From: Candidatus Latescibacterota bacterium
GTDB taxonomy: Bacteria; Latescibacterota; UBA2968; UBA8231
Length of the DNA: 53,063 bases
Reading direction: 5' to 3'
Assembly (NCBI GenBank): GCA_020852055.1
Contig: JADZBP010000023.1
Location: 1 to 53,063, forward strand
The notes below the pieces were generated by a model. The model was not told where the DNA came from. It did no database searches and was given only the letters and a program-made list of their open reading frames with translations. The first letter of the stretch is position 1. Each line of letters begins with the position of its first letter. Made by a program: the position numbers and the translations under genes. Shown in pieces: positions 1-51,331 of this stretch.

Positions 1-2352
1 TACCTGCAGCCAGACGTCAACAACGCCAGCGGGGAGAGCCATATCCGCCACTACCTGCTGGGGCGCCGGTACTTCGCCAGCCGCTTCGGCAAGCTGCCCA
101 AGACCGGTTATAACTTCGACCCCTTTGGCCACGGCGAAGGGTTCCCGCAGATCCTGCGGGGCTGCGGCATCGAGCACTATCTCTTTTGCCGGCCGGACCT
201 GGGCACCTACGACCTGCCTGTCGGCGCTTTCCGCTGGCAGGACCGCTCGGGCAGCGAGGTGATCGCCCGCCGCGGCGACGACCATTACCTGACCAACGGC
301 CGCATCGCCGAGAAACTGGACCGCTTCCTGGTGCACTTTGGCGCCGAGCCGGACATCCTCATCCTGTGGGGGATCGGCAACCACGGGGGCGGCCCTTCGC
401 AGGAGGAATATCTCCGGCTGCAGCAGTACATCAAGGCCCATCCCGAATACGAGTGGATCGAGAGCACCACCGACCGCTTCTTCGAGCAGCGCCTCAAGGC
501 CGGCGGCAACCTGCCTTTGGTGCGCGGCGAGATCCAGAACAGCTTCCCCGGCTGTTATACCTCCATGAGCCGAGTCAAACGCGGGCACCGCGAGGCCGAG
601 AGCCTGATGGCCGCCGCTGAACGCCTCTCGGCCCTGGCCTGGTGGTGGGGGACAGCCCCGTACCCGGCCAAGGATCTGGAGGTGGCCTGGAAGGATATCC
701 TCTTCGCCGAATTCCACGATATCCTGCCCGGTTCGGCGGTGCCTTCGGCCGAGCGCGACAGCGTGCAATTGCTGGCCCATGCCCGCGAGATCCTGCGCCG
801 CCAGCAGTTCCGCGCCCTGCATAGCCTCATCTGCCGCGACGCCGACGCCGCAATGGGCGAGGCGCCGGTTTTTGTCGCCAATCCCCACGGTTTCCCGGTG
901 CATACCCAGGTCGAGTTCGAGGTGCAGCTCAATGCCAATGCCTGGGCCATCCGCGAACCGCAGGTCTTCCTGCGCCACCAGGGCCGCGACTACCCCTGCC
1001 AGCGCCTGCTGGCCGAGGCCAACTGCGCCGGCAACTGGCGGGTGCGCCTCGCTGCCGAGGTGCAGCTAAAGCCCTGGGAGATCGCCCGCTTCGACGAGTA
1101 CTATCTCAACGACCGACCCCAGAAGGTGCGGATTCCCGAGGTCAATGCCCGCAACCTCACCTTCCGCAACCAGCGCTTCACCCTCAAGATCAATCCATTC
1201 ACTGGCCTCGTCGACCACTTCGGCCTGCCCGGCGCCACCAAGTCCCTGGTGCGTCCTGGCGCCTTGGCGCCGGCGTACTGGGCCGACCTGGATCACAGCT
1301 GGACCTGCGGCAGCCCGAAGCGGCTCAAGGGGCACCAGCTCTGGTCCACCTCACCGGGATGGGATGCCAAGCCGGCAGAGCGTTTCCGCCTGGCGACCCG
1401 CAAGGAGGTGGCCCAACTGGCTCCCACGGCGCCCGACAAATGGCTCGGCCTCAGGCAGACCAGTGCCCGACCGGTGCGCATCACTGAACACGGCCCGGTG
1501 CGCACGGTGGTGGAGGCGGTGTTTGTCTGCGGGCCCAGCGCCTTGGTGCGCCAGTACGTGATCGGCCATCCCGAGGGCAGCCTCGAGATCCGGGACCGGC
1601 TCTTCAACAACCACCGCGACTGTATGCTCAAACTGGTCACCCCGCTGGCCTTCGCGGCGGAAAAGAGCAGCGCCGAGACCCTGTACAGCGCGGTCGAGCG
1701 CCAGCCCGGCAAGGAGCACGAGGAGCGGACCAACCAGCGCTGGGTGGCGGTGCGCGGCAAGATGGGCGGCAAGCCGGTATACTTGGCGGCGCTCAATACC
1801 GGCAGCTTCGCCCACAGCCTCACCGCCGACGAATTGGCCCTCAATGTGGTGCGTTCGCCGGCGTACAGCTCCTTCAACATCGATCCCCGAGACGAACGCC
1901 TCAACAACCGCTTCGCCCCGCGCCAGGACCAGGGGGAACATGAGCTGCGTTATGCCCTGCTGGTGGGGGGGCGCTTCGAGGAAGCCCGCATCAGCCGCGC
2001 CGCCCAGGTGCTCAACACCCCGCCGGTCTGGCAGGTGTATTATCCGCAGCCGGAGAAGGTCGAACGCCGGCGGCGCCTCGATGTTTCCGGCACCGTCACT
2101 GTCGATGACGCACAGGTGCAGGTGGTGGCCCTCAAGAAGGCCGAGGTGGGCCAGGAACTGATCGTCCGGCTGTACAACCCCTCGGGGCAGGAGCGCCAGG
2201 TGCGGGTGCAGGTCAAACCCTTCCGCCAGACCATCCGCACGACGGTGGGTGCCTATGGGCTGGCAACTATCGCGGTGCGGCGCGGTGGCAAGGCGCTGCA
2301 GTGGCGGTCGGTGAACCTGGTGGAGGAAGGGCAGGGGCGGCGCAAGGGGTAG
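1..2352 (+). CDS. Alpha-mannosidase, glycoside hydrolase family 38 (5' end cut off)
   Basis: The frame is open from base 1, so the start lies outside the window; 783 residues are visible. The N-terminal part shows the GH38 signature YNFDPFGHG (visible residues 37-45), in which D40 aligns with the family's catalytic nucleophile. The ATG at 259 is only an internal Met, because choosing it would remove this motif. The middle holds the helical bundle region and the C-terminal half is the beta-rich part typical of the family. The predicted role is hydrolysis of alpha-mannosides from glycans. Family members usually have 850-1050 residues, so roughly 100-250 are missing. No signal peptide can be judged. 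A strong hairpin with a T-run follows the stop codon at once. The family call is firm; linkage specificity is unknown. Confidence 0.93.
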   Translation, partial: YLQPDVNNASGESHIRHYLLGRRYFASRFGKLPKTGYNFDPFGHGEGFPQILRGCGIEHYLFCRPDLGTYDLPVGAFRWQDRSGSEVIARRGDDHYLTNGRIAEKLDRFLVHFGAEPDILILWGIGNHGGGPSQEEYLRLQQYIKAHPEYEWIESTTDRFFEQRLKAGGNLPLVRGEIQNSFPGCYTSMSRVKRGHREAESLMAAAERLSALAWWWGTAPYPAKDLEVAWKDILFAEFHDILPGSAVPSAERDSVQLLAHAREILRRQQFRALHSLICRDADAAMGEAPVFVANPHGFPVHTQVEFEVQLNANAWAIREPQVFLRHQGRDYPCQRLLAEANCAGNWRVRLAAEVQLKPWEIARFDEYYLNDRPQKVRIPEVNARNLTFRNQRFTLKINPFTGLVDHFGLPGATKSLVRPGALAPAYWADLDHSWTCGSPKRLKGHQLWSTSPGWDAKPAERFRLATRKEVAQLAPTAPDKWLGLRQTSARPVRITEHGPVRTVVEAVFVCGPSALVRQYVIGHPEGSLEIRDRLFNNHRDCMLKLVTPLAFAAEKSSAETLYSAVERQPGKEHEERTNQRWVAVRGKMGGKPVYLAALNTGSFAHSLTADELALNVVRSPAYSSFNIDPRDERLNNRFAPRQDQGEHELRYALLVGGRFEEARISRAAQVLNTPPVWQVYYPQPEKVERRRRLDVSGTVTVDDAQVQVVALKKAEVGQELIVRLYNPSGQERQVRVQVKPFRQTIRTTVGAYGLATIAVRRGGKALQWRSVNLVEEGQGRRKG

Positions 2353-4438: not shown

Positions 4439-4443
4439 CCTCC
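4439..4443 (-). promoter_or_regulatory. Ribosome binding site that fixes the ssb start
   Basis: GGAGG on the minus strand, seven bases before ATG at 4431. It decides against longer upstream starts in the same frame. Confidence 0.8.
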
Positions 4444-4460
4444 GTTGAGAGAGTGGATGG

Positions 4461-4476: not shown

Positions 4477-4714
4477 GGTTGCTGGTTGGGAAGCACTGGC
4501 CGTGCCACCGCCGGATCCGGAGCCTAAATCGGCGCGTATTCGATAGTTGGCTGGCAGGGGCAGGGCGAGCGCAGCGCGCTGGTCGTGTGCGGCGATCCAC
4601 AGGAGTGTGGGCAAGGGGTGACAAGCTCGGGAGGGGCGGGGGTTCAGGCGGACAATCGAGAGCTTGGTTGTATAACTGAGGTTCCCTAATTACATTTGCA
4701 ACAATTGGGGAGAC

Positions 4715-7656: not shown

Positions 7657-8780
7657 GGCGGTCAGCGCGCCTGCTGCAGGCCGCATTGGCGGAAGGCCAG
7701 GCGCTGACGCAGCTGGGCGCGGGGGAGTGGGGACAGTTGGCGGCGGTGGCCGAGGAGGAGGGGCTTGAGGGGTTCTACTACCAGCGCTGCACCGCGGCCT
7801 CCCTGGTCCTGCCGGCCAGCCTGAGTCGCACCTGGCAGGGGTCGTACCGGCAGACGGCCGCGGCGAACTTTGCGGCGCTGCAGCGCCTGGGTCGGGTCCT
7901 GGCACGGGTGGAGGGTGGGGCCGGCCAGGTGTTGCTGCTGCCCGGAGCAGCCCTCCTGCCCTACTACCCCGATCCGGGTTGCCGGCCGATGGACGATCTG
8001 GACCTGCTGGTCCGGCCCGAGGCCGCTGCCGTTTTCGACGCGGCGCTGGCCGCCGAAGGGTTTCTGCCCCAGCCCCGACACCCGGGCCTTTGGGCCGCCG
8101 GTCCGCTGGTCCTCGACCTGCACCAGGATCTGCTCAACACCTCGCGGATCCGGGCCCGGCGCTTCGCCGCCTGGATGGACCCGGACGAGGTGTGGCGGGA
8201 TAGCCGCATCACCTCGGTCGAAGGGGTTGAGGTGGCGGTGATGGGGTTGGAGGACATGGCGCTCTACACCGCCGTACACGCCCTCAGGCACAGCTTCCGA
8301 CGCCTTACCTGGTTCGTGGACCTGCACCTGCTGCTGCTGGCTGGCATCGACTGGGAGCGGCTGGAAGACAAGGCGCGGCGTTACAATCTGGTTCGACCGC
8401 TGGGGTACGGGTTGCGTTTCCTGCAGCAGGCCGGCGGCCGGCGGCTCCCCGAACCCGGCGAGGCGCTGTTGGCGCGTATCCCCCTGCGCACCGGCGAGGC
8501 CTTGCTGTTGGACCAGATCTTTGGCGACCGCCGCCGCGGCGAGTGGGGCGATGTCCTGTGGGCATTCAGTATCCCCCGATGGCGACGCCGGTGCTGGTTC
8601 CTGATGGAGACCTGCTTCCCCCAGCCGAAAGTGCTGCTGCAGGTGTTCCCCTATCTCCCCGCTCCCCTGTTCCCCCTGGCCTACGGTCTGCGCCTGATGC
8701 AATTGTTGTTTCGGGGCGGCCGACAGTTGTGCTGGTTGTTATGCCGACCCTCTTCGCGAGCGGAAAGAATCATCCTATGA
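7653..8780 (+). CDS. Nucleotidyltransferase-fold protein (PF14907-like), exopolysaccharide-associated
   Basis: 375 residues. The core motif RPMDDLDLLV (residues 111-120, acidic D114/D115/D117) after LLPGAALLPYY resembles the uncharacterised nucleotidyltransferase family that accompanies PqqD-like proteins. The C-terminal half is helical and ends in hydrophobic and basic stretches. In this family the acidic pair would bind metal for nucleotidyl transfer, but the substrate is unknown. The gene overlaps the PqqD-like gene by 4 bases and wza by 4 bases, so the three are almost certainly translated as a unit. This points to a role in polysaccharide assembly or its control. Confidence 0.75.
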   Translation: MRRSARLLQAALAEGQALTQLGAGEWGQLAAVAEEEGLEGFYYQRCTAASLVLPASLSRTWQGSYRQTAAANFAALQRLGRVLARVEGGAGQVLLLPGAALLPYYPDPGCRPMDDLDLLVRPEAAAVFDAALAAEGFLPQPRHPGLWAAGPLVLDLHQDLLNTSRIRARRFAAWMDPDEVWRDSRITSVEGVEVAVMGLEDMALYTAVHALRHSFRRLTWFVDLHLLLLAGIDWERLEDKARRYNLVRPLGYGLRFLQQAGGRRLPEPGEALLARIPLRTGEALLLDQIFGDRRRGEWGDVLWAFSIPRWRRRCWFLMETCFPQPKVLLQVFPYLPAPLFPLAYGLRLMQLLFRGGRQLCWLLCRPSSRAERIIL

Positions 8781-9940
8781 AGACGCGTGGTTTCGCCCGC
8801 TGGCAGATCGCCCTTTTGGCGATTCTGGCCGCCTGCGGTGGCTCCTCTCAGTCGGTGCCCAAAGGCCCGCCGCCGGCGCCGCCCCAGGACCTGCTGGAAA
8901 ATATCCCCTACGACCCGGCCAAACAGGCCTTCACCGAGACCCGCGGGGTCACCGAATACCTGCTGGGCCCAGGGGACGTGCTCGACGTGGTACTGCGCGG
9001 CCTGGAGGTCGTGCGCGAGAAGGTGGTCATCCGCAGCGATGGCAACATTTCCTTCAGCCTGGTCGAGAATATCCGCGCCGCCGGCCTGACCGTCAGCGAG
9101 TTGGACGAGAGCCTGACCAACGAACTGCGGCGCTACCTGCGGGATCCCAAACTCGACATGGAGGTGTCCGAATACCACAGCAGGAATATCTCAGTGCAGG
9201 GGGCGATCCTCTCGGTAAACACCGCCGCCGGGCAGAAGACCGGTCCGGGCCGGTACGGACTCAAGGGTAAACTCCGGGTGCTGGAGGCGCTTCTCGAGGC
9301 AGGTGGCACCACCCCCGACGCTCAGCTCGACCGGGTACAGCTCATCCGCGGCGACAAGTCCTACCGGCTGAACATCCAGCGGGTGCTCAACACCGGCGAC
9401 CCGCGCGAGAATGTGGTGCTGCAGGCCGACGACATCCTCTTCGTGCCCGGCATCGCCCGCCAGAGCAAAAAGGTGGTCATCCTCGGCGAGGTGCGCACGC
9501 CGAATGTGTATGTCTTCTCGGAGGACGTGACCTTCCTCGAGGCCATTGGCCAGGCGGGGGGCTTGACTGACGAGGCGATCCGCAACGACGTGCGGGTCAT
9601 CCGCACCATCGATGGAACCCCGCAGATGTTCTCCCTCAACTACGAGCAACTGGTCAAAGGGCACGAGCTGGAAAGAAACGTTCAGCTCGAGAGCAACGAC
9701 GTGATCTACGCCTCGCGCAGCTTCATCGGCGACCTCAACGACGCCATCAACAAGATCAACCCGTTGCTCGACCTGATGTTGCTGCCGGGCACCTACGGCA
9801 ACATCTACACCACCGGCGGCAGCCAGTGGCTGAACACCGGCGCGCCGCCGGCCACCACTGGGTCGCAGATCTTCACCCAGCCCTTGCCCGGGACGGGCAA
9901 ACTGGCGGTGCCGGCCGATTCGACGCGCCAGGGGAAATGA
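8777..9940 (+). CDS. wza: Outer-membrane polysaccharide export lipoprotein, Wza family
   Basis: 387 residues. The N-terminus is a lipoprotein signal, with LAAC at residues 17-20 as lipobox and C20 as the lipidated residue. A polysaccharide-export domain follows (about 55-135, starting LLGPGDVLDVVLRG), then SLBB-type ligand-binding repeats (about 140-220 and 235-320, the second beginning KKVVILGEVRTPNVYVF). The protein would form the outer-membrane channel for a surface polysaccharide. The start at 8777 overlaps the preceding stop (ATGA); upstream in-frame codons would bury the lipobox. The matching Wzc-like kinase lies about 21 kb away at 30641, behind the division cluster. Confidence 0.93.
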   Translation: MKTRGFARWQIALLAILAACGGSSQSVPKGPPPAPPQDLLENIPYDPAKQAFTETRGVTEYLLGPGDVLDVVLRGLEVVREKVVIRSDGNISFSLVENIRAAGLTVSELDESLTNELRRYLRDPKLDMEVSEYHSRNISVQGAILSVNTAAGQKTGPGRYGLKGKLRVLEALLEAGGTTPDAQLDRVQLIRGDKSYRLNIQRVLNTGDPRENVVLQADDILFVPGIARQSKKVVILGEVRTPNVYVFSEDVTFLEAIGQAGGLTDEAIRNDVRVIRTIDGTPQMFSLNYEQLVKGHELERNVQLESNDVIYASRSFIGDLNDAINKINPLLDLMLLPGTYGNIYTTGGSQWLNTGAPPATTGSQIFTQPLPGTGKLAVPADSTRQGK

Positions 9941-28479: not shown

Positions 28480-29655
28480 ATGCCTTTCAAGATTATCGAG
28501 AACGATCACAAGGCCAAGATCAAAGTCTTCGGCGTCGGCGGTGGCGGCGGCAACGCCATCAACCGCATGGTGGCCTCGGGAATGAACGGGGTCGAATTTA
28601 TCGCCGTCAATACCGACGCGCAGGCGCTGGCGGGTTCGTCGGCGGACGCCTGCATTTGTATCGGCGAATCGGTGACCCGCGGCCTGGGGGCCGGCGCCAA
28701 GCCGGAACTGGGGCGGCAGGCCGTCGAGGAGGACCGCGAGAAGATCGCCGAGAAGTTGGCCGACACCGACCTGGTCTTCATCACCGCCGGCATGGGCGGC
28801 GGCACCGGCACCGGGGCCGCGCCGGTAGTGGCGGAAATTGCCAAGAAGCAGGGCGTGCTGACGGTGGGTATCGTCACCGAGCCCTTTCAGTTCGAGGGCG
28901 TGCCGCGCATGCGCAACGCCATGTCGGGCATCAACGAGCTGCAGGAGCACGTCGATACCCTGATTGTCATCAAGAACCAGCGCTTGCTTCAGGTCTGCTC
29001 CAAGGATACCACCCTGGAGGAAGCCTTCCTCAAGGCCGACGAGGTGCTGCTCCAGGCCACCCGCGGCATCGCCGACCTGATCACCATCCCGGGCATGATC
29101 AACCTCGACTTCAACGATGTGCGCACCATCATCACCGAAGGCGGCGACGCCATCATGGGGGTGGGTTCGCACCGCGGCGAGAACCGGGCGGTGGAAGCGG
29201 CCCGCAAAGCCATCAAGAGCCCCTTGCTCGAGGAGGTCTCCATCGAAGGCGCCAAAGGGGTGCTGATCAACATCTCGGCCGGCTCCAATCTCACCCTCTT
29301 CGAGGTCAACGAGGCCGCCTCGGTGATCCAGGAGGCCGCCGGTCCCGAGGCCAATATCATCTTCGGCACCGTGATCGACGACTCGCTGGTCGACGAGATC
29401 CTGGTGACGGTGATCGCCACCGGGTTCTCGCTCCATCGCGAGTTCCGCAGCGAACGGCGCAATGGCGACGAGAACCGCAACGGCCGCGACAAACTGACCC
29501 CGTTGCGCCCCCACGGGAGCCGCAATGCGGCGGCCCATAAGGAAGACGACCAGGCGGAGGCGGGCGGCGACCAGGAACGCGCCGCCGGCAGCGGCTGGCG
29601 CAAGGACGAGTTGGATTATCCGGCCATCCTGCGCAAGACCCAGAAGGCCGGCTGA
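28480..29655 (+). CDS. ftsZ: Cell division protein FtsZ
   Basis: 391 residues. GTP signature GGGTGTGAAPV (from residue 107), FGVGGGGGNAINRM near the N-terminus and LDFNDVRTII (synergy loop) in the GTPase. A hydrophilic linker follows from about residue 325, and the C-terminal peptide DELDYPAILRK that binds FtsA is intact. It polymerises into the division ring. Start: GGAGG-type site (CAAGGAGGAAAAG) before 28480. It is the last gene of the dcw cluster. Confidence 0.98.
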   Translation: MPFKIIENDHKAKIKVFGVGGGGGNAINRMVASGMNGVEFIAVNTDAQALAGSSADACICIGESVTRGLGAGAKPELGRQAVEEDREKIAEKLADTDLVFITAGMGGGTGTGAAPVVAEIAKKQGVLTVGIVTEPFQFEGVPRMRNAMSGINELQEHVDTLIVIKNQRLLQVCSKDTTLEEAFLKADEVLLQATRGIADLITIPGMINLDFNDVRTIITEGGDAIMGVGSHRGENRAVEAARKAIKSPLLEEVSIEGAKGVLINISAGSNLTLFEVNEAASVIQEAAGPEANIIFGTVIDDSLVDEILVTVIATGFSLHREFRSERRNGDENRNGRDKLTPLRPHGSRNAAAHKEDDQAEAGGDQERAAGSGWRKDELDYPAILRKTQKAG

Positions 29656-29679: not shown

Positions 29680-29718
29680 CGGGAGGGCGATGCATATTTC
29701 CTATTGATCGCCCTCCCG
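29680..29718 (+). terminator. Long hairpin behind ftsZ, possible terminator or mRNA end
   Basis: CGGGAGGGCGAT (29680-29691) pairs perfectly with ATCGCCCTCCCG (29707-29718) around an AT-rich 15-base loop. There is no T-run. The position right after ftsZ and before kptA suggests a transcript end or processing site. The rest of the 141-base gap (29656-29796) shows nothing more. Confidence 0.5.
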
Positions 29719-29796
29719 CTGGCATCGGCCAGTGTGTTTCATCCAACCACGTCCGGCGCTCTGCTGCCAGACGTTCGCGAAAGGACCCCAATACCT

Positions 29797-30576
29797 GTGA
29801 CCAGCCTCAGCCGCCTGTCGAAGTTACTCGCCCTCTTCCTGCGCCACCGGCCCGAGGAAGCCGGACTCCAGATCGACACCTACGGCTTTGTCCCCCTGGA
29901 CGAGATGCTCAAGGCCATCCAGGAACGGTACCCGGAGGTGGTGGAGGGGGATATCCGCAAGCTGATCGAAGGGGCGTCCCAGCAGCGCTTCGAGATCAGC
30001 GACCGGGGCATCCGGGCCGTGTACGGTCACAGCTTCTTTGTCGAGATGGACGGGGAGCCCATCCAGGCCCCCGAGGTGCTCTACATGGGATGCCTGCGCA
30101 AGGAGGTGGAGCGGTTCCGCACCGATGGCATCAAGCCGGTGGACCGCTATTACGTCCATCTGTCGATGAGCCGCGAGACGGCGGCTGAGCGCAGCCACCA
30201 GCCGGGGGACGCCTGTGTGATCGAGGTTGCGGCGGCCCAGGCCCAGGCGGCAGGGCACCAGTTCTACCAGCGCGGGGAGGTGGTCCTGACCCTCGAGATC
30301 CCCGCGCAGTTTGTGGGTGAAGCCCACGACGTCGCCTTGCCTCCCGGGGCCAGGCGGCCTGCCGAGGAAAGTGATCGCCGCGGCGGCAGTCGGGGTGATC
30401 GCCGGCCCTCTGGTGGGGGCGACCGGCGGTCCTCCGGCGGTGGTGGCGAGCGGCGCCCGCCCTCGGGCAACACTGCGCGCCCGCCTTCGGGCAACACCGC
30501 GCGCCCGGCTGCCAGCACCGAGGCTGCGGCACCCGCCTTTGGCCGGCGGCCCCGCAAGGCCACCGGCAGGCGCTAG
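29797..30576 (+). CDS. kptA: RNA 2'-phosphotransferase (KptA/Tpt1 family) with Arg/Gly-rich tail
   Basis: 259 residues from GTG at 29797, with GAAAGGA a little upstream. Residues 1-180 follow the Tpt1 pattern: LSKLLALFLRHRP, YGFVPLDEML, IRAVYGHSF, YYVHLSMSRETA and FYQRGEVVLTLEIP. Tpt1 enzymes move a 2'-phosphate from RNA to NAD, or ADP-ribosylate RNA and DNA ends. Two usually conserved places differ: YGHS where QGHS is common, and LYMGC where LYHGT is common. From about residue 185 the protein continues in a low-complexity tail rich in Arg, Gly, Ser and Pro, encoded partly by a 24-base tandem repeat. Typical members end near 180-200 residues. An upstream TTG (29704) is unlikely as start. Confidence 0.87.
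   Translation: MTSLSRLSKLLALFLRHRPEEAGLQIDTYGFVPLDEMLKAIQERYPEVVEGDIRKLIEGASQQRFEISDRGIRAVYGHSFFVEMDGEPIQAPEVLYMGCLRKEVERFRTDGIKPVDRYYVHLSMSRETAAERSHQPGDACVIEVAAAQAQAAGHQFYQRGEVVLTLEIPAQFVGEAHDVALPPGARRPAEESDRRGGSRGDRRPSGGGDRRSSGGGGERRPPSGNTARPPSGNTARPAASTEAAAPAFGRRPRKATGRR
30454..30501 (+). repeat. Two tandem 24-base repeats inside the kptA tail
   Basis: Copies at 30454-30477 and 30478-30501 differ at two bases; each encodes RPPSGNTA. A partial third copy follows. The repeat extends the low-complexity tail of the KptA-like protein. Confidence 0.85.
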
Positions 30577-30640: not shown

Positions 30641-33600
30641 ATGGCCCAGTACGAAGTAACCCTACGCGACTACTGGCGCATCATGCGCCGGCGGAAGGGC
30701 ATCGTGATCTTCACGGTGGTCCTGCTGGGGTTCTTCAGCTTCCTCATCGCCCATCTCTGGAAACCGGAGCCGATCTACAAGGCCGTCTCCAAGGTCCAGA
30801 TCAACTCTCCCGAAAGCCTGGCCTCCATCAATGCCCAGTACATGGGTTTTGGCGGCGGGGGCACCGACCAGCTGGAGACCCAGCGTTCGATCATCACCAG
30901 TTTTCCGGTGATCCGACGCACGGCCCAGCATCTGGGGCTCTTCGACGACTGCCACACCGAAGAGGACTCGACGGAGATGGTGCTGGGCCTCCAGGCCCAT
31001 ATCACGACCAGCCAGGAGGGCTACACCAATATCATCGGCATCGAGGCCACGGGCTCTCGACCCGAGTCGGCCAGGGAACTGGCCGATGCGGTCGCCGTGA
31101 TGTTCGCCGACTACAACAACGCGCAGAAGAACGAGAAGGCCAAACAGCACCGGATCTTTGTCGAAGAGCAGCGCGAGCAGGCCCGCCGGACCCTGGCCCT
31201 GGCCGAGGACTCGGTGCAGGCCTACCGCGAGGAACAGCAACTGGTCTCCATCGATGCCCAGGCCAGTGTCATCCTCAATCAGATCAACACCGCCAAACAG
31301 GAACTGCAGCGCCTCGAGCAGGACGTCAGGGGCATCGACGCCATGCTGGCGGAGATCAGCGAGAAGAAGGGCCTGTCGGAGCGCACCATGCAGGGGGCTT
31401 CGCGCACCCGGGTGGGTGATGCCTTTCTGAATCTGTCCCAGCAGCTCAACAATCTGCTGCTGGAGCGCAACGCCATGTTGGTGCAGTACACCGAGGACCA
31501 CCCCAAGGTCCAACAGATCCAGGTCAAGGTCGACGAGCTCAACAAGAGCCTCAAAGACGAGTTGCGGGCCCGGCGCCAGGTCTTGGCCCGCGACCTGGAA
31601 GCGGCCCGCGACCTGCTCGGCAACTCCCAGGCCGAATATGATCTGCTGCCCAGCAAGGGGCTGGAACTGGGCCGGCTGCAGCGCGAGGTCTCCCTGCGAC
31701 AGCAGGTGGTGGGGGTGCTGGAGGAGGAGTACCAGAACGCCCGCATCCGCGAGGCGGACCGCATCGAGGAGGTGACGGTGCTGCAGCGGGCGGTGACGCC
31801 CTCGACACCCACCAACCCGCAGAACCCGATCCAGCGCGGCATGATGGGGGTGATCCTCGGCCTGGTGCTGGGCATCGTCTTCGCGGTGGTCGCCGAATCC
31901 CTCGACACCTCCATCGGCACGGTGGAGGATGTCCAGGAATACACCGGCACCCAGGTGGTGGGCATCATCCCCTACATCGACATCGACGATGTGCGGGCCT
32001 CGCTGCGCCGGCGCGGCCTGGACGTGAGCGACGAAAAGACGGTCCAGCGCAAGGCACAGTTGGTGGCCTTTTTCGACCCGCAGTCGACGATGGCCGAGTC
32101 GTATCGCACTCTGCGCACCAACATCGAATTCGTCACCGTCGAGAAGGGCGTCAAATGCCTGATGGTCACCAGTTCGATGTTGCGCGAGGGCAAAAGTACC
32201 ACCATCGCCAACCTGGCGATGACCATGGCCCAGTTGGGCAAACGCACCTTGCTGGTGGACTGCGACCTGCGCAAACCAACCATGGCCAAGCTCTTCGGCC
32301 TGGACAAGGAGCCGGGCATGACCGAGGTGATCGTGGGCAACTACGACTGGCACCAGGTCATCCGCACCGTCACCGACATCGTCACCGGCGGTATGGGTAT
32401 GGAGGACATCCTCCAGACCCAGGGCATCAGCAACCTGCACATCATTCCCAGCGGCTCGATCCCGCCCAATCCGGCCGAGCTGCTCAACTCCCGCCGCATG
32501 ACCGATTTCATCGCCGAGGTGCGCGAGGCGTACGACGTGGTCCTCTTCGACTCGCCGCCCTCGCTGCAGGTTACCGACGCGGCGATCCTGGGCAAGAAGG
32601 TGGACGGGGCGCTGGTGGTCTACAAGGTGGGCGAGATCTCCCGCACCTCGCTGAAACGCTCCACCTCGCTGCTCAAGAGTGTGCAGATCGAGCTCCTGGG
32701 CATCGTGCTCAACGGCTTACACGCCGACGTGAGCGTCGAATACCAGGATCTCGGGTATTACTCCTATTACGGCTACGGCGCGGAGTCGCGGTCCCAACCG
32801 CGCACCTTGCGCGAAAAATTCGAAGACAAGTACCGCAAATTCAAGAACCGGTTCACCAACGCCGAGGAGCCCCCGGTGTCCTCGGCCGCGGCCACGGACG
32901 CCGAAGACGCGGACCTCGATGCCGATATCGACGCGGAGGAGGAGGAGGAGGCCGAAGGGGATGGCGAGCGCCGCTCCGCGTCCCGTGCTGTTGGCGCGCT
33001 GGTCTCGGCGTTGTCCCTGCTGGCCGTAGGCCTGGGGCTGGTCTGGCAGAGCGGCTACCTGGCCAAACCCCTGGGAATGGTGCCCTTGCTGGCGGAGTAC
33101 CCGCCGCGGGAGGCGCTGGTGTTGCCGCCCCCGGCGGCGGTTGGCGAGCAGGCCGCCCCGCCCGGCGAGGATACGATTGCGGCTATGGAGTCGACCCCTG
33201 AGGACAGGGCCCTGGCCGCTGCGGAGGAGGAGATGGTGGTCGAAGGGGAACCGGTGGCGGCGGAGGTCCCGGCCGAGGTGCTGCCCGAACCGGAACCCGA
33301 ACCTGCTCCGGTCGAGCCGCCACCCAGCGCCGCCCTCCGCAACACCGCCTCGCCTCGTTCAGGGCCCCAGCCCTATGTGATCCATGTGGCCTCGTACCCG
33401 CCCGACAGCAAGTGGGAACAGCGCACCCTGGAGCAATTGCGGGCGAAGAATCTGGAGGCGTTCCTCTCGCCGGTAGTGGTCAAAAACCAGCCTTACCGGC
33501 GGCTGCTGGTGGGCAGTTTCTCCAGCGCCAACGAAGCCCGGCGGCGGGCCGCGCAACTCCAGCAGCAAGGCCTGCTCGAGAAGTACAAGATCCTCCGCCT

Positions 33601-33811
33601 GCCCTATGCGGTGGAGTTGGCGGGCAGTTCGCCACCTGGCCAGGCCCGCGGCGCGCTCGCCCAGTTGGGGAAAAAGGCGGAGATCGCCTACGTGCAGCCG
33701 CTGAGCGAAAGCACCGCCAGGGTGCTGGCGGGCGCCTTTGAGGACGCCGCTGCGGCGCAGCGCTTCATCGAAAACGAAACCGGGGGCAGCGGGCGGGTCG
33801 TGCCCCGCTGA
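30641..33811 (+). CDS. wzc: Polysaccharide co-polymerase/tyrosine kinase (Wzc type) with added C-terminal SPOR domain
   Basis: 1056 residues. Order: Wzz domain with membrane helix (about 20-40), coiled-coil periplasmic part (about 150-390), second helix (about 397-420), BY-kinase with P-loop REGKSTT (K518), Walker A' LLVDCDLRKP and Walker B VVLFDSPPS, then Tyr cluster (Y706, Y707, Y709, Y710, Y712). Normal kinases of this family end here. This one goes on with an acidic linker, a third helix (about 783-805), a Pro/Glu-rich spacer and a SPOR domain (about 912-985, YVIHVASYPPDSKW, YRRLLVGSF). Predicted topology puts the kinase inside and SPOR in the periplasm. SPOR domains bind denuded septal glycan. 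Start: ATG 30641 behind GAAAGAG. Confidence 0.92.
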   Translation: MAQYEVTLRDYWRIMRRRKGIVIFTVVLLGFFSFLIAHLWKPEPIYKAVSKVQINSPESLASINAQYMGFGGGGTDQLETQRSIITSFPVIRRTAQHLGLFDDCHTEEDSTEMVLGLQAHITTSQEGYTNIIGIEATGSRPESARELADAVAVMFADYNNAQKNEKAKQHRIFVEEQREQARRTLALAEDSVQAYREEQQLVSIDAQASVILNQINTAKQELQRLEQDVRGIDAMLAEISEKKGLSERTMQGASRTRVGDAFLNLSQQLNNLLLERNAMLVQYTEDHPKVQQIQVKVDELNKSLKDELRARRQVLARDLEAARDLLGNSQAEYDLLPSKGLELGRLQREVSLRQQVVGVLEEEYQNARIREADRIEEVTVLQRAVTPSTPTNPQNPIQRGMMGVILGLVLGIVFAVVAESLDTSIGTVEDVQEYTGTQVVGIIPYIDIDDVRASLRRRGLDVSDEKTVQRKAQLVAFFDPQSTMAESYRTLRTNIEFVTVEKGVKCLMVTSSMLREGKSTTIANLAMTMAQLGKRTLLVDCDLRKPTMAKLFGLDKEPGMTEVIVGNYDWHQVIRTVTDIVTGGMGMEDILQTQGISNLHIIPSGSIPPNPAELLNSRRMTDFIAEVREAYDVVLFDSPPSLQVTDAAILGKKVDGALVVYKVGEISRTSLKRSTSLLKSVQIELLGIVLNGLHADVSVEYQDLGYYSYYGYGAESRSQPRTLREKFEDKYRKFKNRFTNAEEPPVSSAAATDAEDADLDADIDAEEEEEAEGDGERRSASRAVGALVSALSLLAVGLGLVWQSGYLAKPLGMVPLLAEYPPREALVLPPPAAVGEQAAPPGEDTIAAMESTPEDRALAAAEEEMVVEGEPVAAEVPAEVLPEPEPEPAPVEPPPSAALRNTASPRSGPQPYVIHVASYPPDSKWEQRTLEQLRAKNLEAFLSPVVVKNQPYRRLLVGSFSSANEARRRAAQLQQQGLLEKYKILRLPYAVELAGSSPPGQARGALAQLGKKAEIAYVQPLSESTARVLAGAFEDAAAAQRFIENETGGSGRVVPR

Positions 33812-33853: not shown

Positions 33854-35284
33854 ATGCTCACAACCACCCGCGCCTCGCGGCGGGCCCGGACCCGGGCCCG
33901 GGACACCCACTTCCAGCCCCACAGTTCCCTGTACTTGGTTATCGGGTTGCTGTGCTTGGCCATTGCTGCGGCCCTGGCGCGAACCCCCTTCCTGATGAGC
34001 ATCGGCCTGGTGGCCGGGATCGTGGTCTTCATCGTCTGCCTGGTCAACACCGAGGCCAGTATCTATGTGTTGATCTTCTCCATGCTGCTCTCCCCGGAGT
34101 TCATCATCGGCGGCCTGGGCGGAGCGAGCGCCACCACCGCCAGCCGCGGTGTGACCCTGCGCACCGAAGACCTCCTGTTGGTGGTGCTGGTTTTCGCGTG
34201 GCTGGCCCGTATGGCGGTGCACAAGGACCTGGGCCTGGTGCGCGAGACCCCGCTCAACCGGCCCATCGGCCTGTACACCACCGTCTGTGCGGGAGCCACC
34301 GGAGCCGGCATGATCCTGGGGTACGTCAACGGGATGACGGGGTTCTTCTTCGTCCTCAAGTATATCGAGTATTTCGTCGTCTACTTCGTCGCCGCCAACT
34401 TCACCAACCAACGCTCGCAGATCAAGCGGTACACCGTGGCCCTGCTGGTCACCGGATTCATCGTCAGCATCGTGGCCATGTTCCAGATTCCGGGCGGGGG
34501 CCGCGTCTCGGCACCCTTCGAAGGCGAGGAGGGTGAGCCCAACACCCTGGGGGGATACCTGCTCTTTGTCGGGGCGATCGCGGCCGGGCTGGCCCTGAAC
34601 CTGCCCAAGGCACGGACGCGCTGGATGTTGATGGCATTGGTGGTGGTGATGCTGGTGCCCTTCCTTTTCACCCTGTCGCGCGCTTCCTATGCCGGCCTGC
34701 CCCTGGTGTACCTGGCGCTGGTGTTCCTGCACAAGAAGAAGCGGGTGCTGATGATCGGCCTGATGGTGCTCTTCGGGGTGTTGGCCATGGTGCTGATGCC
34801 CCAGGTGGTCAAAGACCGGATCTTCAGCACCTTCAACCCCGAATACACCCGGCGCTACGACCAGGCGGCCATCGGCGGGGTGAAACTCGACACCTCGACG
34901 ACGGAACGGGTGCGCAGTTGGCAGAAGGCGGTGGAGGACATCGCCGAGAGCCCGATCTGGGGTTTCGGGGTTACGGGCTACGGGTTCATGGACGCGCAGT
35001 ATCCGCGCATCATGGTGGAGACCGGGCTGTTGGGGTTGGTGACCTTCTTCATGCTCGTCAATGCGGTGTTCAAGGCGTGTAGACACGTGTTCAACACCGC
35101 CACCGACCCGCTCTACCGAGGCCTGGCCATGGGGACCCTGGCGGGCCTGGGGGGGTTGCTGGTGCACGGCCTGGGCTCCAACACCTTCATCATCGTGCGC
35201 ATCATGGAACCCTTCTGGCTGGTGGTGGGCCTGGTGATCGCGGTCTCGAAGATGGAACCGGCGGCAAGGGCGGCCCCGGCGTGA
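33854..35284 (+). CDS. O-antigen ligase/polymerase-like membrane protein (Wzy/WaaL family)
   Basis: 476 residues with ten or more predicted membrane helices and a long periplasmic loop in the second half (around FNPEYTRRYDQAAIG and TTERVRSWQKA), followed by GFGVTGYGFMDAQY. This is the layout of the Wzy_C family, which polymerises or ligates undecaprenyl-linked glycans on the periplasmic side. Which of the two reactions it performs cannot be read. GGAG stands before the start at 33854. It overlaps the flippase gene by 4 bases. Confidence 0.88.
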   Translation: MLTTTRASRRARTRARDTHFQPHSSLYLVIGLLCLAIAAALARTPFLMSIGLVAGIVVFIVCLVNTEASIYVLIFSMLLSPEFIIGGLGGASATTASRGVTLRTEDLLLVVLVFAWLARMAVHKDLGLVRETPLNRPIGLYTTVCAGATGAGMILGYVNGMTGFFFVLKYIEYFVVYFVAANFTNQRSQIKRYTVALLVTGFIVSIVAMFQIPGGGRVSAPFEGEEGEPNTLGGYLLFVGAIAAGLALNLPKARTRWMLMALVVVMLVPFLFTLSRASYAGLPLVYLALVFLHKKKRVLMIGLMVLFGVLAMVLMPQVVKDRIFSTFNPEYTRRYDQAAIGGVKLDTSTTERVRSWQKAVEDIAESPIWGFGVTGYGFMDAQYPRIMVETGLLGLVTFFMLVNAVFKACRHVFNTATDPLYRGLAMGTLAGLGGLLVHGLGSNTFIIVRIMEPFWLVVGLVIAVSKMEPAARAAPA

Positions 35285-36729
35285 ACCTGCAACAACAGAT
35301 CGGGCGGGGGTTGCTGTTGGCCTTTGCCGGCATGGCCTCGAGCCGGCTGGTGTCCTTCCTCGCCGACCTGGGGCTGATGCGCCTGCTGGCCCCCGGGGAG
35401 TTCGGGGTGCTGGCCCTGGGCCTGCTGGTCGTCAATGCGCTGGGATTGGCCCACTCGCTGGGAGTGGGGGAGGCGCTGGTGGTCCGCCGGCAGGTGGACC
35501 CGGAGACCTGCGACACCGCCTTCTACCTCTCCCTGTTCATGGGCGGCGGCCTCTGCGCCCTGGCGTGGCTGACGGCGCCCTGGATGGCGCTGCTGGCCGG
35601 CCCTCCCGACCGCGAACTGGTCGCCGAGGTGCTGCGCTGGTTGAGCCTGTGTATCCTCTTCCAGGCCCTGGCCGGCGTACCCGGCGCCCTCTTCGATCGC
35701 GCCCTCGAGTTTCGCAAGAAGTTCCTGGTCGACGCCCTGCCTACCCTTGTTTACGCGCTGCTGGCGGTGGGACTGGCCTGGAAGGGGGCCGGGGTCTGGA
35801 GCCTGGTCTGGGGCCGCCTGGGGGCCGCCGCTGTTTCCACGGCCGCTGCCTGGGCCCTGAGCGCCTGGCGGCCGGGCTGGCGCTTCTCTCGGGCGCGGGC
35901 GCGGGAACTGGCCGGGTACGGCCGCTACGTGGCCGGGGCGGCGCTGGTCTCTTTTGTGGTGGTCAATCTCGACGACGCACTGGTCGTCCGCCTGGCTGGC
36001 ACCGAGGCGCTGGGGTTCTACAACCGGGCCTTTCTCCTGGCCAACCTGCCCGCCACCGCCGTGGCCCACCTGGCCAACCGGGTGGCTTTTCCGGCCTACG
36101 CCCGCCTCAAGGATCAGCCCGCAGGCACCGGGCCCCTCTGCCGGCGCCTCCTGCAGACGGTCGGGGCCCTCAGCCTGCCTTTTGCCCTGGGTCTGGCGTT
36201 CCTGGCCGAACCTTTTACCCTCGGGGTGCTGGGGGGACGGTGGTTGCCGCTGGTGCCGATGCTCCAGTGCCTGGCCGGCTACGGTCTGTGCCGGGCCTTC
36301 CTGTCGAACCTGGGCCCGCTCTTCAATGCGCTGGGGGCGCCGCAGGCCATCTTCAGGATCAACCTGCTGCAGTCGGCGTTGCTGCTGGCCCTGCTGGTGC
36401 CGCTTGTGGGGCGCTGGGGGGGCATGGGGGCGGCGTTGGGAGTGCTGGCGGGAACGGTCCTCAGTGCGCCGATGGCCCTCTGGTACCTGCGCCGGCTCGC
36501 CGGGCCCGGCCTGGCCTGGCAGGCGCTGCGGCCCTTGTGGGGGCCGGGTGCGGCGATGGCCCTGGCCCTGTGGGTTTTGCGGGCGCTGACGGAAGGGGAG
36601 GCCCCCCTGGTGCAGTTGTCGCTGGCCGGCGGCGGGGCGCTGCTGGTCTACGGTGGGCTACTGTGGTGGTGGCAACCCCAGATCCTCGGCGGGGCGATCA
36701 AACTGGTGCAGGGCAAGAGCGATGAGTGA
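35281..36729 (+). CDS. Polysaccharide flippase, Wzx/MOP superfamily
   Basis: 482 residues, GTG start at 35281 overlapping the previous stop. Twelve to fourteen hydrophobic segments; LLAFAGMASSRLVSFLADLGLM near the start and LGFYNRAFLLANLP in the middle are typical of lipopolysaccharide/teichuronic export flippases. It would turn undecaprenyl-linked oligosaccharides to the outer face of the inner membrane. The 3' end overlaps the next glycosyltransferase by 8 bases. Confidence 0.9.
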   Translation: MNLQQQIGRGLLLAFAGMASSRLVSFLADLGLMRLLAPGEFGVLALGLLVVNALGLAHSLGVGEALVVRRQVDPETCDTAFYLSLFMGGGLCALAWLTAPWMALLAGPPDRELVAEVLRWLSLCILFQALAGVPGALFDRALEFRKKFLVDALPTLVYALLAVGLAWKGAGVWSLVWGRLGAAAVSTAAAWALSAWRPGWRFSRARARELAGYGRYVAGAALVSFVVVNLDDALVVRLAGTEALGFYNRAFLLANLPATAVAHLANRVAFPAYARLKDQPAGTGPLCRRLLQTVGALSLPFALGLAFLAEPFTLGVLGGRWLPLVPMLQCLAGYGLCRAFLSNLGPLFNALGAPQAIFRINLLQSALLLALLVPLVGRWGGMGAALGVLAGTVLSAPMALWYLRRLAGPGLAWQALRPLWGPGAAMALALWVLRALTEGEAPLVQLSLAGGGALLVYGGLLWWWQPQILGGAIKLVQGKSDE

Positions 36730-42077: not shown

Positions 42078-43228
42078 GCCGGCCCCGGGTTTTACACGTC
42101 ATCACCCGCCTCGACCGGGGCGGTTCGGCGGAGAACACCCTGCTCTGCGCCGCCCATATGACCGGGTACGACACGGTGGTGGCGGTGGGCCCCACTCAAG
42201 GGGAACGCAGCCCCACCGAAGCCCTGGCCCGGCAGCGGGGGGTCGAGTTCGTCGAGGTGCCGCATCTGGTGCGGCCGATCCGGCCCCTGGCCGATCTGCG
42301 GGCGTTGTGGGAGCTGTGGCGGCTGATGCGCCGCGGACGCTTCGACCTGGTCCACACCCACACCTCCAAGGCCGGGCTCCTGGGGCGGGTGGCAGCGGTG
42401 CTGGCCAGGGTCCCCCGCCGGGTGCACACCGCCCACGGCCACGTGTTCTACGGGTACCACGGGCCGGCCCTGTCGCGGCTCTTCGTCTGGCTGGAGCGCT
42501 GGGCCGCCTGGTTCACCGACCGCCTGGTGGCCCTGACCCCGGCCGAAGAGCACGACCAGTTGCGTTTCGGGGTGGGCTCGGCCGCCAAGTTTGCGGTGAT
42601 CCACAGCGGGGTGGATTTTGCGCCCTTTGCGCGCCCCGCGGCGGACCGCGAGGTCACCCGGCGGGTGCTGGGTCTGGCGCTCGACGGCCTGGTCATCGGC
42701 ACCCTGGGCCGCCTCACCCCCATCAAGGGCCAGGCCGATCTGGTGCGGGCCTTTGCGCAGGTGCGTCCGCAGGTTCCCGAGGCGTGGTTGTTGCTGGTTG
42801 GCGACGGGGAGGAGGGCCCGGGCCTGGCCGCGCTGGTGCGGGAACTGGGGGTGGCCGACCGGGTGGTTTTTGCCGGCTGGCGCGAGGAGGTGCCGGACCT
42901 GCTCCGGGCCATGGATATTTTTGTGCTGCCCTCGCTGAACGAGGGCATGGGCAAGGCCCTGGTGGAGGCGATGTACGTCGGTCTGCCGGTGGTTGCCAGC
43001 CGCGTGGGCGGGGTGCCCGACCTGATCGAGGCCGGGCGGGCCGGTCTGCTGGTGCCCCCCGGCCAGCCGGCGGCCCTGGCGGCGGCCCTGCTGGGGCTGG
43101 CCGCGGACCCGCACCGCCGCCGCGAACTGGGTGCCCGGGCGGCGCAGGTGGCGCGCGCTTACAGCGTGGAGAGTATGATCGAAAAACTGGACGGGTTGTA
43201 CCAGTCCCTCCTGAAGGAGAGCACGTGA
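42074..43228 (+). CDS. Glycosyltransferase, GT4-like (fifth of five)
   Basis: 384 residues. VLHVITRLDRGGSAENTLL, VHTHTSKAGLLGR, VIHSGVDFAPF, LGRLTPIKGQADLV and NEGMGKALVEAMYVGLPVV follow GT4 closely, as in enzymes that transfer to undecaprenyl-linked sugars. It begins inside the previous gene's stop and ends with a one-base overlap with the PHP-domain gene. Confidence 0.93.
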   Translation: MSRPRVLHVITRLDRGGSAENTLLCAAHMTGYDTVVAVGPTQGERSPTEALARQRGVEFVEVPHLVRPIRPLADLRALWELWRLMRRGRFDLVHTHTSKAGLLGRVAAVLARVPRRVHTAHGHVFYGYHGPALSRLFVWLERWAAWFTDRLVALTPAEEHDQLRFGVGSAAKFAVIHSGVDFAPFARPAADREVTRRVLGLALDGLVIGTLGRLTPIKGQADLVRAFAQVRPQVPEAWLLLVGDGEEGPGLAALVRELGVADRVVFAGWREEVPDLLRAMDIFVLPSLNEGMGKALVEAMYVGLPVVASRVGGVPDLIEAGRAGLLVPPGQPAALAAALLGLAADPHRRRELGARAAQVARAYSVESMIEKLDGLYQSLLKEST

Positions 43229-44685
43229 TGCGCTTGACGTGGCGGCTCGACGCCGTCTGGATTGGCCTGGTGTGTTGGGCGCTGCTGGTCGGGACCGCCC
43301 GGGCCCAGGAAGACTATTTCGAGCTGCGCGGCGCCCTGCACATCCACACCAATTACGGCACTGGCAAGGAGAGCATCGAGCAGATCGCCCGGTTGGCCGA
43401 GGAGCACGGGGTGGACGTGCTCGTGATTGCCGAGGACCCCGTGCTGCGGGTGCGGTACGGGCTGCCGCTGCTGCGCAACCTCTGGCCCTTCTGCTATACC
43501 CGCACCCTGCCGGCCCCCTATACCGAGGGCACCCTGCACGAATACCTCCAGGAGATCAAGGAGGTGGCTGCCAGGCACCCCAAGCTGGTGATGCTCGACG
43601 GCCTGGAGTCGAATCCCTTCTACTACTGGGATGTGGACCTGTCCACCCGCACCTGGACCCTCAATTCCTTCGACAAACACATCGTCGCCCTCAACCTGAG
43701 CGAGGAGGATTACGCCAACCTGCCTGATCTGCACGGGCCGGGCAATCTGTATTGGCATTGGACCAGCCTGTTGCTGCTCTGGCCCCTGATCGGGGTGGCT
43801 TACGGGCTCTACCTGGGGGGAAGCCATCCGCGCGCTTTGCGCCTGGCGGTGCTGGTGATCTCGGTGCTGTGCCTGATCAACAATTTCCCCTTCAAGGTCG
43901 CCTACATGGACCAGTACAACGGCAACCCGGGTCCAGGCCCGTACCAGCGCTACATCGACTACGTCAACAGCCGTGGCGGCATGGTGCTCTGGCCCCATGT
44001 CGAGGCCAGATCGGGCATTCCCCCCGAAGACATCCTGGGCCTGGCCCATATCGTCAGCGCGACCCCGCCCCATCCCGAGGATCTGGTCGACACCTACGAC
44101 TACACCGCCTTTGCCGCGCTCTATGCCGACAATATCACCGCTACCGAGCCGGGCCGGCAGTGGGATACAGTGCTGGCGCAGTACGTGGCCGGCCAGCGGC
44201 CCAAGCCGATCTGGGGCGAGGGGGAGATCGACTACCACTGGGACCAGAAGGGCAACCGGATCCACGACATCCTCACCGTTTTCCTAGTGAAGGAGCGCAC
44301 CCCCCAGGCGGTGCTGGACGCCCTGCGCCTGGGGCGGATGTACGCGGTGCGCGGGGGGGACGAGCAACTGGTGTTGGATACCTTCGAGGTGGAGAGCGAG
44401 ATGCGCCGCGGCATCGCCGGGGAGGACATTCCCAGCCAGGGTCTGGCCCGGATCTCGATGCGCATTGACAAACTGAACGGCAGACAGGAGGAGGTCAAAC
44501 TGCGGCTGATCAAATCCGGCCAGGTGATCGCCCAGTTCAACGGGCTCACCCCCCTCGAGTTCCAGCAGGTGGATACCGGTATCCGGCCGGGGGAAAAGGT
44601 CTACTACCGCTTGCTGGCGCAGAGCAAAAGCTCGCGGCTGACCTCCAACCCCATCTTCGTGACCGGCACGGGGGGTTCGCCTTGA
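43228..44685 (+). CDS. Secreted or membrane PHP-domain protein with helices inserted in the domain
   Basis: 485 residues. An N-terminal signal sequence or anchor (about 8-26, ending TARAQ) is followed by a PHP metal-binding start GALHIHTNYGTG (H38, H40) and VDVLVIAED. At about 176-198 and 203-222 two strongly hydrophobic helices interrupt the domain. The PHP element RGGMVLWPHVEA (H257) comes after them. The C-terminal part is beta-rich (EVESEMRRG, EKVYYRLLAQ). PHP proteins of this branch (CehA/McbA-like) are metal phosphoesterases. A phosphoesterase acting on a lipid-linked or phosphorylated glycan would fit the locus, but this is inference. Confidence 0.75.
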   Translation: MRLTWRLDAVWIGLVCWALLVGTARAQEDYFELRGALHIHTNYGTGKESIEQIARLAEEHGVDVLVIAEDPVLRVRYGLPLLRNLWPFCYTRTLPAPYTEGTLHEYLQEIKEVAARHPKLVMLDGLESNPFYYWDVDLSTRTWTLNSFDKHIVALNLSEEDYANLPDLHGPGNLYWHWTSLLLLWPLIGVAYGLYLGGSHPRALRLAVLVISVLCLINNFPFKVAYMDQYNGNPGPGPYQRYIDYVNSRGGMVLWPHVEARSGIPPEDILGLAHIVSATPPHPEDLVDTYDYTAFAALYADNITATEPGRQWDTVLAQYVAGQRPKPIWGEGEIDYHWDQKGNRIHDILTVFLVKERTPQAVLDALRLGRMYAVRGGDEQLVLDTFEVESEMRRGIAGEDIPSQGLARISMRIDKLNGRQEEVKLRLIKSGQVIAQFNGLTPLEFQQVDTGIRPGEKVYYRLLAQSKSSRLTSNPIFVTGTGGSP

Positions 44686-48494: not shown

Positions 48495-49391
48495 ATGCTG
48501 AGATACCTATTCCTGCTCTTCCTGCTCTGCGCCGCCCCTGCAGGGGTGTTGGCCAAGAGCACGCCCACCCATGTGGTCAAACGCGGCGATACCCTGATCA
48601 ACATCGCCGCCCGCTACCAGCTCAGCGTGCGCCAACTGCGGCAGTGGAACGGTCTGCACGGCGACCGGCTCGCCATCGGTCAGCAACTGACCCTGTCCGG
48701 GCAGAACCAGCCGATCGCCTTCCAGCAGTTCCGGCCCAAACCCGCCAAAAAGAAGGTGAAAAAGGTCGCGACGGTCCCCAGATCACGGGAGGCCGATGCG
48801 GTGCTGCAGGCCCGGTTCGCCGCCTGGAGCGACTCGGCCATCGCCCTGTCGCGGCGGCGCGGGGGGTATGCACTGGTGGTCAACAAGCAGGAAAGGCAGA
48901 TGGACGTGTATCTGGCCGGGGAGCGTATCTCCACGCTGCCGGTGGCCATCGGCAGCACCGATGCCGAGCAACTGGTGGACCGCCGCCAGGCCAACGACTA
49001 CCATCTCAAGGAAGGCCTCTTCCATCTCTCCGAGGTCTCCTGGTCGCGCCGGGTGGCCAAATGGGACTGCGTGTGGATGCGCATCCACACGGTGGAGGCG
49101 GCCAAACGCGATTATGGCGAGGTCTTCGGCGCCGAGGGGCGCCGCCGGATCGAGTCCTGGGAGGCCAGCCACGGCGCCATCCGCAGCGACGGGGATGTGC
49201 AGGGTTTCAACCGGGCCCATCCCGGAGCGCATATCTGGCGCGGCCTGGGGGTGCACGGCGGGGGCGCTGACTACGACTGGACCGAGGGGTGTGTGGCGCT
49301 GGACCGCAAGAATATCCGCTGGCTCTACGACCGGTTGAGCAAGATGTCCGACCACGGCGTCGGGACCCCTATTGCCGTGGTGCGTTATTGA
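48495..49391 (+). CDS. L,D-transpeptidase (YkuD fold) with LysM domain
   Basis: 298 residues. Signal peptide (1-20, ending GVLA), a LysM peptidoglycan-binding domain (about 25-69, THVVKRGDTLINIAARY), a Lys-rich linker, and a YkuD catalytic domain starting YALVVNKQERQMDVYLAG with GVHGGG and TEGCVAL (C266 nucleophile). It would form 3-3 cross-links at meso-DAP or attach a protein to the wall, which agrees with the DAP-type MurE. It has its own promoter and a strong terminator behind it. Confidence 0.93.
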   Translation: MLRYLFLLFLLCAAPAGVLAKSTPTHVVKRGDTLINIAARYQLSVRQLRQWNGLHGDRLAIGQQLTLSGQNQPIAFQQFRPKPAKKKVKKVATVPRSREADAVLQARFAAWSDSAIALSRRRGGYALVVNKQERQMDVYLAGERISTLPVAIGSTDAEQLVDRRQANDYHLKEGLFHLSEVSWSRRVAKWDCVWMRIHTVEAAKRDYGEVFGAEGRRRIESWEASHGAIRSDGDVQGFNRAHPGAHIWRGLGVHGGGADYDWTEGCVALDRKNIRWLYDRLSKMSDHGVGTPIAVVRY

Positions 49392-50905: not shown

Positions 50906-51322
<417 letters not shown>

Positions 51323-51331
51323 CCGCCAGTC

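Follow-up and report, generated by a model that had tools for sequence, protein, structure and literature searches.

In PASTA Ser/Thr kinases, a single helix joins a Hanks-type cytoplasmic kinase to an outer repeat that binds the wall, a wall domain different from SPOR. Bacterial tyrosine kinases (BY-kinases) of the PCP-2 type, such as Wzc and Etk of Escherichia coli, combine a Wzz-type periplasmic part, two membrane helices, a Walker-motif kinase domain and a Tyr cluster, and belong to polysaccharide gene islands. The available parts of two reports describe Wzc as a chain with two helices and a Tyr-rich end, which cycles between octamer and monomers as the free Tyr tail passes through the active site of a neighbor (PMC8285477, PMC11986026). 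In Streptococcus pneumoniae, available excerpts tie the capsule BY-kinase system to the division site and have it determine the place of capsule synthesis; its two proteins CpsC and CpsD are not joined in one chain, and they are recruited by divisome-associated proteins (PMC4574921, PMC10233549). SPOR domains occur in FtsN, DamX, DedD and RlpA, which have no kinase, and the members studied locate to septa, according to the accessible part of one study (PMC6895207); in the part available of another, an insoluble wzz product is among the candidates from an RlpA pulldown (PMC9712689). Here we describe an open reading frame at positions 30641..33811 of a 53,063-nucleotide contig of Candidatus Latescibacterota bacterium (JADZBP010000023.1; this whole stretch is called the window) that joins a Wzc-type kinase to SPOR domains in one chain.

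Architecture and predicted topology of the kinase

The window protein shares with Wzc and Etk a Wzz/GNVR part between two helices, a Walker-motif catalytic domain and a Tyr-rich cluster, and its gene likewise heads a polysaccharide island. The NCBIfam model for polysaccharide tyrosine autokinases (eps_fam) matches residues 486-711 (1e-54; 185 bits, cut-off 108), the protein matches solved Wzc chains at 1.7e-48, and Pfam returns AAA_31 (1.6e-14), GNVR exactly at its cut-off (27.7 bits) and Wzz just below it (25.4 against 25.5 bits). A complete Wzz/BY-kinase with a P-loop at K518 and a Tyr cluster, as proposed in the original prediction, is borne out, with the cluster beginning at Y701. Unlike Wzc, the chain does not end in the cytoplasm with its Tyr tail and continues for 344 further residues, which include a third transmembrane helix (TM3) and SPOR domains, and it is therefore classed as a variant of PCP-2 BY-kinases. 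Pfam SPOR (PF05036) matches the protein in two stretches (3.6e-9; 37.3 bits against a cut-off of 21), and a genome-wide Pfam search on the DNA places them at 33419-33571 and 33605-33772, with single-stretch scores of 30.3 and 22.9 bits. The acidic linker, third helix, Pro/Glu-rich spacer and SPOR domain at about 912-985 had all been anticipated; the tail had been read as carrying a single SPOR domain, and Pfam and the structure model place a second at 986-1056. The features, all on the forward strand, are:

30641..33811 (+), SPOR-tailed polysaccharide BY-kinase, 1056 aa (open reading frame; Pfam, NCBIfam and solved Wzc chains)
30701..30757 (+), TM1, residues 21-39 (hydropathy 2.59; more Lys/Arg before than after in 97/97 sequences)
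30758..31837 (+), Wzz/GNVR periplasmic part, residues 40-399 (Pfam Wzz 5-96, just below cut-off; GNVR 345-417, at cut-off)
31838..31894 (+), TM2, residues 400-418 (hydropathy 2.63)
32078..32785 (+), BY-kinase domain, residues about 480-715 (profile matches), with P-loop K518 and the motifs DCDLR 540-544 and DSPP 637-640; K518, D540, D542 and D637 are invariant in the alignment
32741..32776 (+), Tyr cluster Y701, Y706, Y707, Y709, Y710, Y712 (sequence)
32852..32980 (+), acidic cytoplasmic linker (predicted), residues 738-780 (sequence; mean pairwise identity 0.24)
32987..33043 (+), TM3, residues 783-801 (hydropathy 2.32)
33092..33364 (+), Pro/Glu-rich periplasmic spacer (predicted), residues 818-908 (sequence; mean pairwise identity 0.22)
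33368..33595 (+), SPOR domain 1, residues 910-985, with H915 at the place of RlpA Gln270 and R954 at that of RlpA Arg309 (Pfam, structure model)
33596..33808 (+), SPOR domain 2, residues 986-1056 (second Pfam stretch and structure model; fold barely tested in the structural comparison)

Hydrophobic segments peak at residues 21-39, 400-418 and 783-801 in a hydropathy scan. Among the 97 of 117 sequences that passed the filters of the charge-counting script, Lys and Arg are more frequent before than after the helix in 97/97 for TM1, 90/97 for TM2 and 84/97 for TM3, the exceptions at TM3 being eight sequences with equal and five with reversed counts. With the N-terminus inside, this bias predicts a cytoplasmic kinase and acidic linker and a periplasmic SPOR part. 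The protein is accordingly predicted to have three membrane helices, and the charge counts support the periplasmic SPOR assignment that had previously been made from the number of helices.

An AlphaFold model of residues 898-1056, built from a 15-sequence alignment, has a mean predicted local distance difference score (pLDDT) of 91.8 and a predicted TM-score (pTM) of 0.85, and consists of two beta-alpha-beta-beta-alpha-beta units, the RNP-like fold of SPOR domains. The first unit matches the SPOR domains of RlpA, CwlC, DedD and DamX; FtsN was absent among the structural-comparison matches shown. With the tandem as query, Foldseek itself counted zero matches at E <= 0.001: the top matches were double-domain proteins such as BT0572 and SerB2 (TM-score about 0.28), and the RlpA SPOR domain ranked 8th with a probability of 1.00. 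A sequence comparison of the tandem with the PDB gave weak matches to acyl-protein thioesterases and nothing else.

We favor, with moderate confidence, a Wzc-type kinase whose predicted third helix and SPOR pair likely tether it to the wall, most likely close to or at the sites of division. The SPOR pair on its spacer could reach the wall, where by binding glycan it would hold the export machine to peptidoglycan and place the kinase, polymerase, flippase and outer-membrane partner at new or amidase-processed wall. Septal targeting, which appears likely, would recall the pneumococcal system, with the difference that the wall-type domain here lies within the kinase chain. Since the Tyr segment is followed by the linker and TM3, it must work as a loop with no free end, and because the Tyr tail is a tethered loop, attachment to the wall could affect not just location but also phosphorylation and the cycling of octamers. 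This bears on how Gram-negative bacteria keep export of surface polysaccharide in step with division and growth of the wall, and points to a possible export-wall link encoded in one chain across many uncultured lineages. The parts of the protein are known and their arrangement is new: full-text searches aimed at the fusion found no description of it in a literature that excluded most subscription journals, in agreement with the earlier impression that the architecture had not been reported. That Wzc-type kinases normally end with the Tyr cluster also agrees with E. coli Wzc, as far as the accessible parts of the reports go (PMC8285477, PMC11986026).

Recurrence and conservation of the fusion

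To follow the fusion in other genomes, three protein searches were run from the C-terminal region, each scoring about 8000 candidates that shared most words with the query. They returned 13, 26 and 70 matches, or 101 distinct proteins, 94 of them annotated as having a kinase together with SPOR; since the queries favor SPOR-bearing proteins and candidate scoring was limited, this is no prevalence figure. The other seven are two non-kinases (P0033, P0035), a SPOR-less kinase (P0013), two proteins with SH3 domains (P0100, P0101) and two in which the tail or part of it is present without a Pfam SPOR call (P0012, P0020). Sources named include Candidatus Latescibacteria, Handelsmanbacteria, Thermodesulfobacteriota, Deltaproteobacteria and Desulfatiglandales; the same domain order, for which a database search had been proposed, is thus found both in the phylum of the window and in metagenome-assembled genomes (MAGs) of Deltaproteobacteria/Thermodesulfobacteriota. 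Of the 99 kinase-bearing proteins, 97 show a hydrophobic segment downstream of the kinase domain (it is lacking in P0013, and that of P0030 was missed by the script and seen separately). Relatives have four to eight Tyr residues within 40 residues after the kinase, a linker between Tyr segment and TM3 of median length 46 residues (range 4-88) and a median of 262 residues after TM3. Automatic annotation at NCBI names one relative (P0082) a SPOR domain-containing protein. The SPOR parts of the non-kinases P0033, named Nitrospirae, and P0035 match the tail of the kinase at locus L086, with 37% identity across 46% of that query.

In a 12-sequence alignment, mean pairwise identity is 0.63 and 0.53 in the two SPOR domains and 0.54 in TM3 with its flank, and far lower in the linker (0.24) and spacer (0.22). 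The fusion recurs in many relatives with its domains conserved between variable linkers and is not due to chance. An assembly artefact or frameshift fusion was ruled out by the continuous open reading frame, the coding-like GC by codon position and the recurrence in other genomes. The same conservation speaks against the idea that an old fusion left the tail behind as a passive by-product, with ftsZ adjacent by accident, as does its persistence in Latescibacteria and Deltaproteobacteria and its replacement by a tandem wall-type domain in two sequences. We regard that idea as very improbable, even though SPOR-less kinases occur in the phylum, one of them beside a SPOR copy in a single genome (P0013), and nine genomes checked from the window's own family (f1) keep ftsZ and kptA without the kinase.

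Within the phylum, a strong match was obtained in 26 of 64 genomes. By alignment, kinase and SPOR-type tail occur together in the f1 genomes G000, G001, G002, G003, G005, G008, G010, G011, G012, G014 and G015, and outside f1 in G024, G062, G042, G043, G044 and G049; including G006, which has Wzz, TM3 and tail without the kinase domain, 18 genomes bear the tail. TM3 exceeds the hydropathy threshold of 1.5 in the copies checked (leaving out the G042 fragment), except at L034 and L039 (genomes G010 and G011), with 1.42 each. In G061 a stop precedes the tail, in G004 and G035 the contig ends after TM3, and the tail is absent in G045, G047, G040, G041 and G050. The kinase at locus L033 has no Pfam SPOR call, yet aligns with SPOR1. 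Genome G003 holds a SPOR copy beside ftsZ (L031) and a SPOR-less copy elsewhere (L043, 6531-8882, reverse strand; P0013). At locus L042 of G006 (2534-4726, reverse strand; 731 aa), Wzz runs on in frame into the linker, TM3 and SPOR part, with the whole kinase domain missing; the junction contains no N and the SPOR part ten N, and this single case is either natural or an assembly fault. SPOR-less paralogues, the kinase-less relative and the exchange of SPOR for SH3 provide natural comparisons. The f1 gene order and kinase were also seen in a MAG contig titled Gemmatimonas phototrophica (L028), a title that is probably wrong.

Wall contact and the septum

Several points weigh against the preferred reading. 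The full-length structure model is poor (pLDDT 52.7) and was left unused, SPOR2 scores weakly in Pfam (22.9 bits), and some related kinases lack the tail (P0013, L088, L089, L052-L054); the remaining points concern the exchange of the tail, its glycan-contact site and the link to ftsZ.

In two proteins, P0100 and P0101 (P0101 being named Deltaproteobacteria), the chain is retained from Wzz through kinase and Tyr cluster to TM3 and then carries two SH3 domains (SH3_3, 59.5 and 57.9 bits). In a kinase tree they form one branch at 99 beside a SPOR-bearing sequence at 82, and the SPOR-less sequences require three changes; the tree was made by a quick method with long outgroup branches, and its label for other SPOR sequences (SPOR_other) includes P0014-P0020, which group with the window's phylum. 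Bacterial SH3 domains are known as wall binders. That one tandem wall-type domain can stand in for another at this position is the strongest argument for contact of the tail with the wall, and it speaks for general wall contact, not for septa. It favors a general wall anchor, in which the tail would fix the export complex to peptidoglycan all round the cell and align Wzc with Wza through the wall, with no septal preference, a possible reading that we hold more tentatively than septal targeting and that gains from the rarity of the contact Gln in kinase-linked SPOR domains and from an ftsZ link that is not general. Opposed to it are the invariance of R954 and the SPOR tails of 94 of the 101 proteins retrieved, with queries that favored SPOR, the studied members of that family being septal as far as the available text reports (PMC6895207).

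At the glycan-contact site, the accessible part of the RlpA study describes contacts by Gln270 and an Arg patch, and reports that SPOR domains with solved structures, those of FtsN and DamX included, largely retain this Gln (PMC6895207). The window protein shares the SPOR fold of RlpA, DedD and DamX and differs at this residue: RlpA Gln270 corresponds to H915 in SPOR1, as both the Pfam position and the structural range indicate (model 14..90 to chain 266..341), and SPOR2 has Glu. The contact Gln is present in 3 of 88 readable kinase-linked SPOR domains, the others having Tyr (57), His (15), Arg (12) or Phe (1). These 88, some of them near-copies, remain from 108 sequences read by letter pattern, eight of which were unmatched and 12 of which were dropped because the match starts with [YF]R, the beta-3 motif. 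As a control we took 65 SPOR matches from 22 genomes of the phylum, 15 of them in kinases; one of the other 50 had its site outside the match, and Gln is present in 42 of the remaining 49, with Leu in six and His in one. In the same set, one of the 15 genomes with a readable kinase tail has Gln. R954, which corresponds to RlpA Arg309, does not vary in either the 12-sequence or the 15-sequence alignment.

We take the kinase-linked SPOR domains to form a distinct group, a SPOR subgroup marked by replacement of the usual contact residue, and their ligand specificity may have changed. The tail could then be a sensor with a changed ligand, the SPOR pair reading, in place of denuded glycan, the polysaccharide being exported, a wall glycan in modified form or the Wza side of the complex, and signaling to the kinase through TM3 and the tethered Tyr tail. 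The Gln counts (3/88, mostly Tyr, His and Arg instead, against 42/49) and a Tyr tail that is no longer a free end agree with such a sensor, which we nevertheless consider unlikely: R954 is kept, and Gln is likewise missing from seven of the 49 non-kinase SPOR matches, six of them with Leu and mostly in second units of multi-SPOR proteins. Moreover, polar glycan contacts in RlpA are mostly main-chain in the portion of the study available, so that loss of Gln need not abolish binding (PMC6895207). A broader proposal, which we offer as speculation, would see a widespread class of wall-reading kinases in which the Tyr tail is tethered via TM3 to exchangeable SPOR or SH3b tandems and the SPOR version without the contact Gln reads a different wall feature, gating kinase cycling and export. 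In multi-SPOR proteins of the phylum, second SPOR units at L134, L136, L140, L141, L143 and L133 have Leu where first units have Gln, like SPOR2 of the L086 kinase, and this division between first and second units is perhaps general.

The original prediction had also drawn on the position of the kinase two genes after ftsZ. That position is confirmed, and the order ftsZ-kptA-kinase is found in all 12 f1 loci in which it could be tested (the window, L029-L038 and the kinase-less L042; the G010 contig starts inside the kinase and falls outside the test). Genes for ftsA and ftsQ are also seen in 11 of these 12, the contig of L033 ending inside ftsZ. As general support the link fails: ftsZ is near the kinase in none of seven loci of other families (L040, L041, L044, L084-L087), which lie on short contigs of 4.7-20 kb, with L041 cut and L084 stopped before the SPOR part, and in G024 ftsZ is on another contig than the kinase. 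Proximity to ftsZ is thus not general across families, and the ftsZ-kptA pair persists without the kinase. Linkage to ftsZ may help co-expression, and linkage alone shows no division role. Septal targeting, our preferred reading, appears likely, and the original interpretation is upheld in part, with an ftsZ link weaker than had been thought. The neighboring genes in the window are:

28480..29655 (+), ftsZ, second gene upstream of the kinase (Pfam Tubulin 9.2e-52, FtsZ_C 2.3e-35)
29704..30576 (+), kptA/Tpt1 RNA 2'-phosphotransferase, between ftsZ and the kinase (PF01885, 2.2e-26)
33854..35284 (+), O-antigen ligase/polymerase-like gene (Wzy_C), next downstream (PF04932, 9.4e-13)
35281..36729 (+), Wzx-like flippase (PF13440, 4.2e-64)
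8543..9940 (+), Wza-like polysaccharide export protein, elsewhere in the window (Poly_export 1.2e-17 and SLBB)
50942..51322 (+), P-II gene, at the far edge of the polysaccharide island (PF00543)

The polysaccharide island

In the f1 loci that were examined, KptA/Tpt1 directly follows ftsZ whether or not the kinase is present. In the nine f1 genomes that lack the kinase, the next detected gene after ftsZ-kptA is P-II with glnE in seven and DegT in two, and the window has a P-II/glnE pair at 50942-53062 (GlnE by Pfam). The occurrence of P-II after kptA in kinase-less relatives and in the window points to a polysaccharide island, about 20 kb long with the kinase gene first, between kptA and P-II, that is missing or reduced in those relatives. 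Its products include the Wzy_C protein, the Wzx-like flippase, WbqC, DegT, a family 4 glycosyltransferase and an L,D-transpeptidase with LysM.

A promoter scan found none, with 0.7 expected, and a PADLOC scan gave one weak P-loop match, which was ignored. Terminator-like sites number six against 3.7 expected. The LysM and L,D-transpeptidase (YkuD) gene lies near the far end of the island (48495-49391). The gene at 43225-44685, whose product looks secreted and by eye has a PHP-like start without a Pfam match, recurs in the islands of several relatives.

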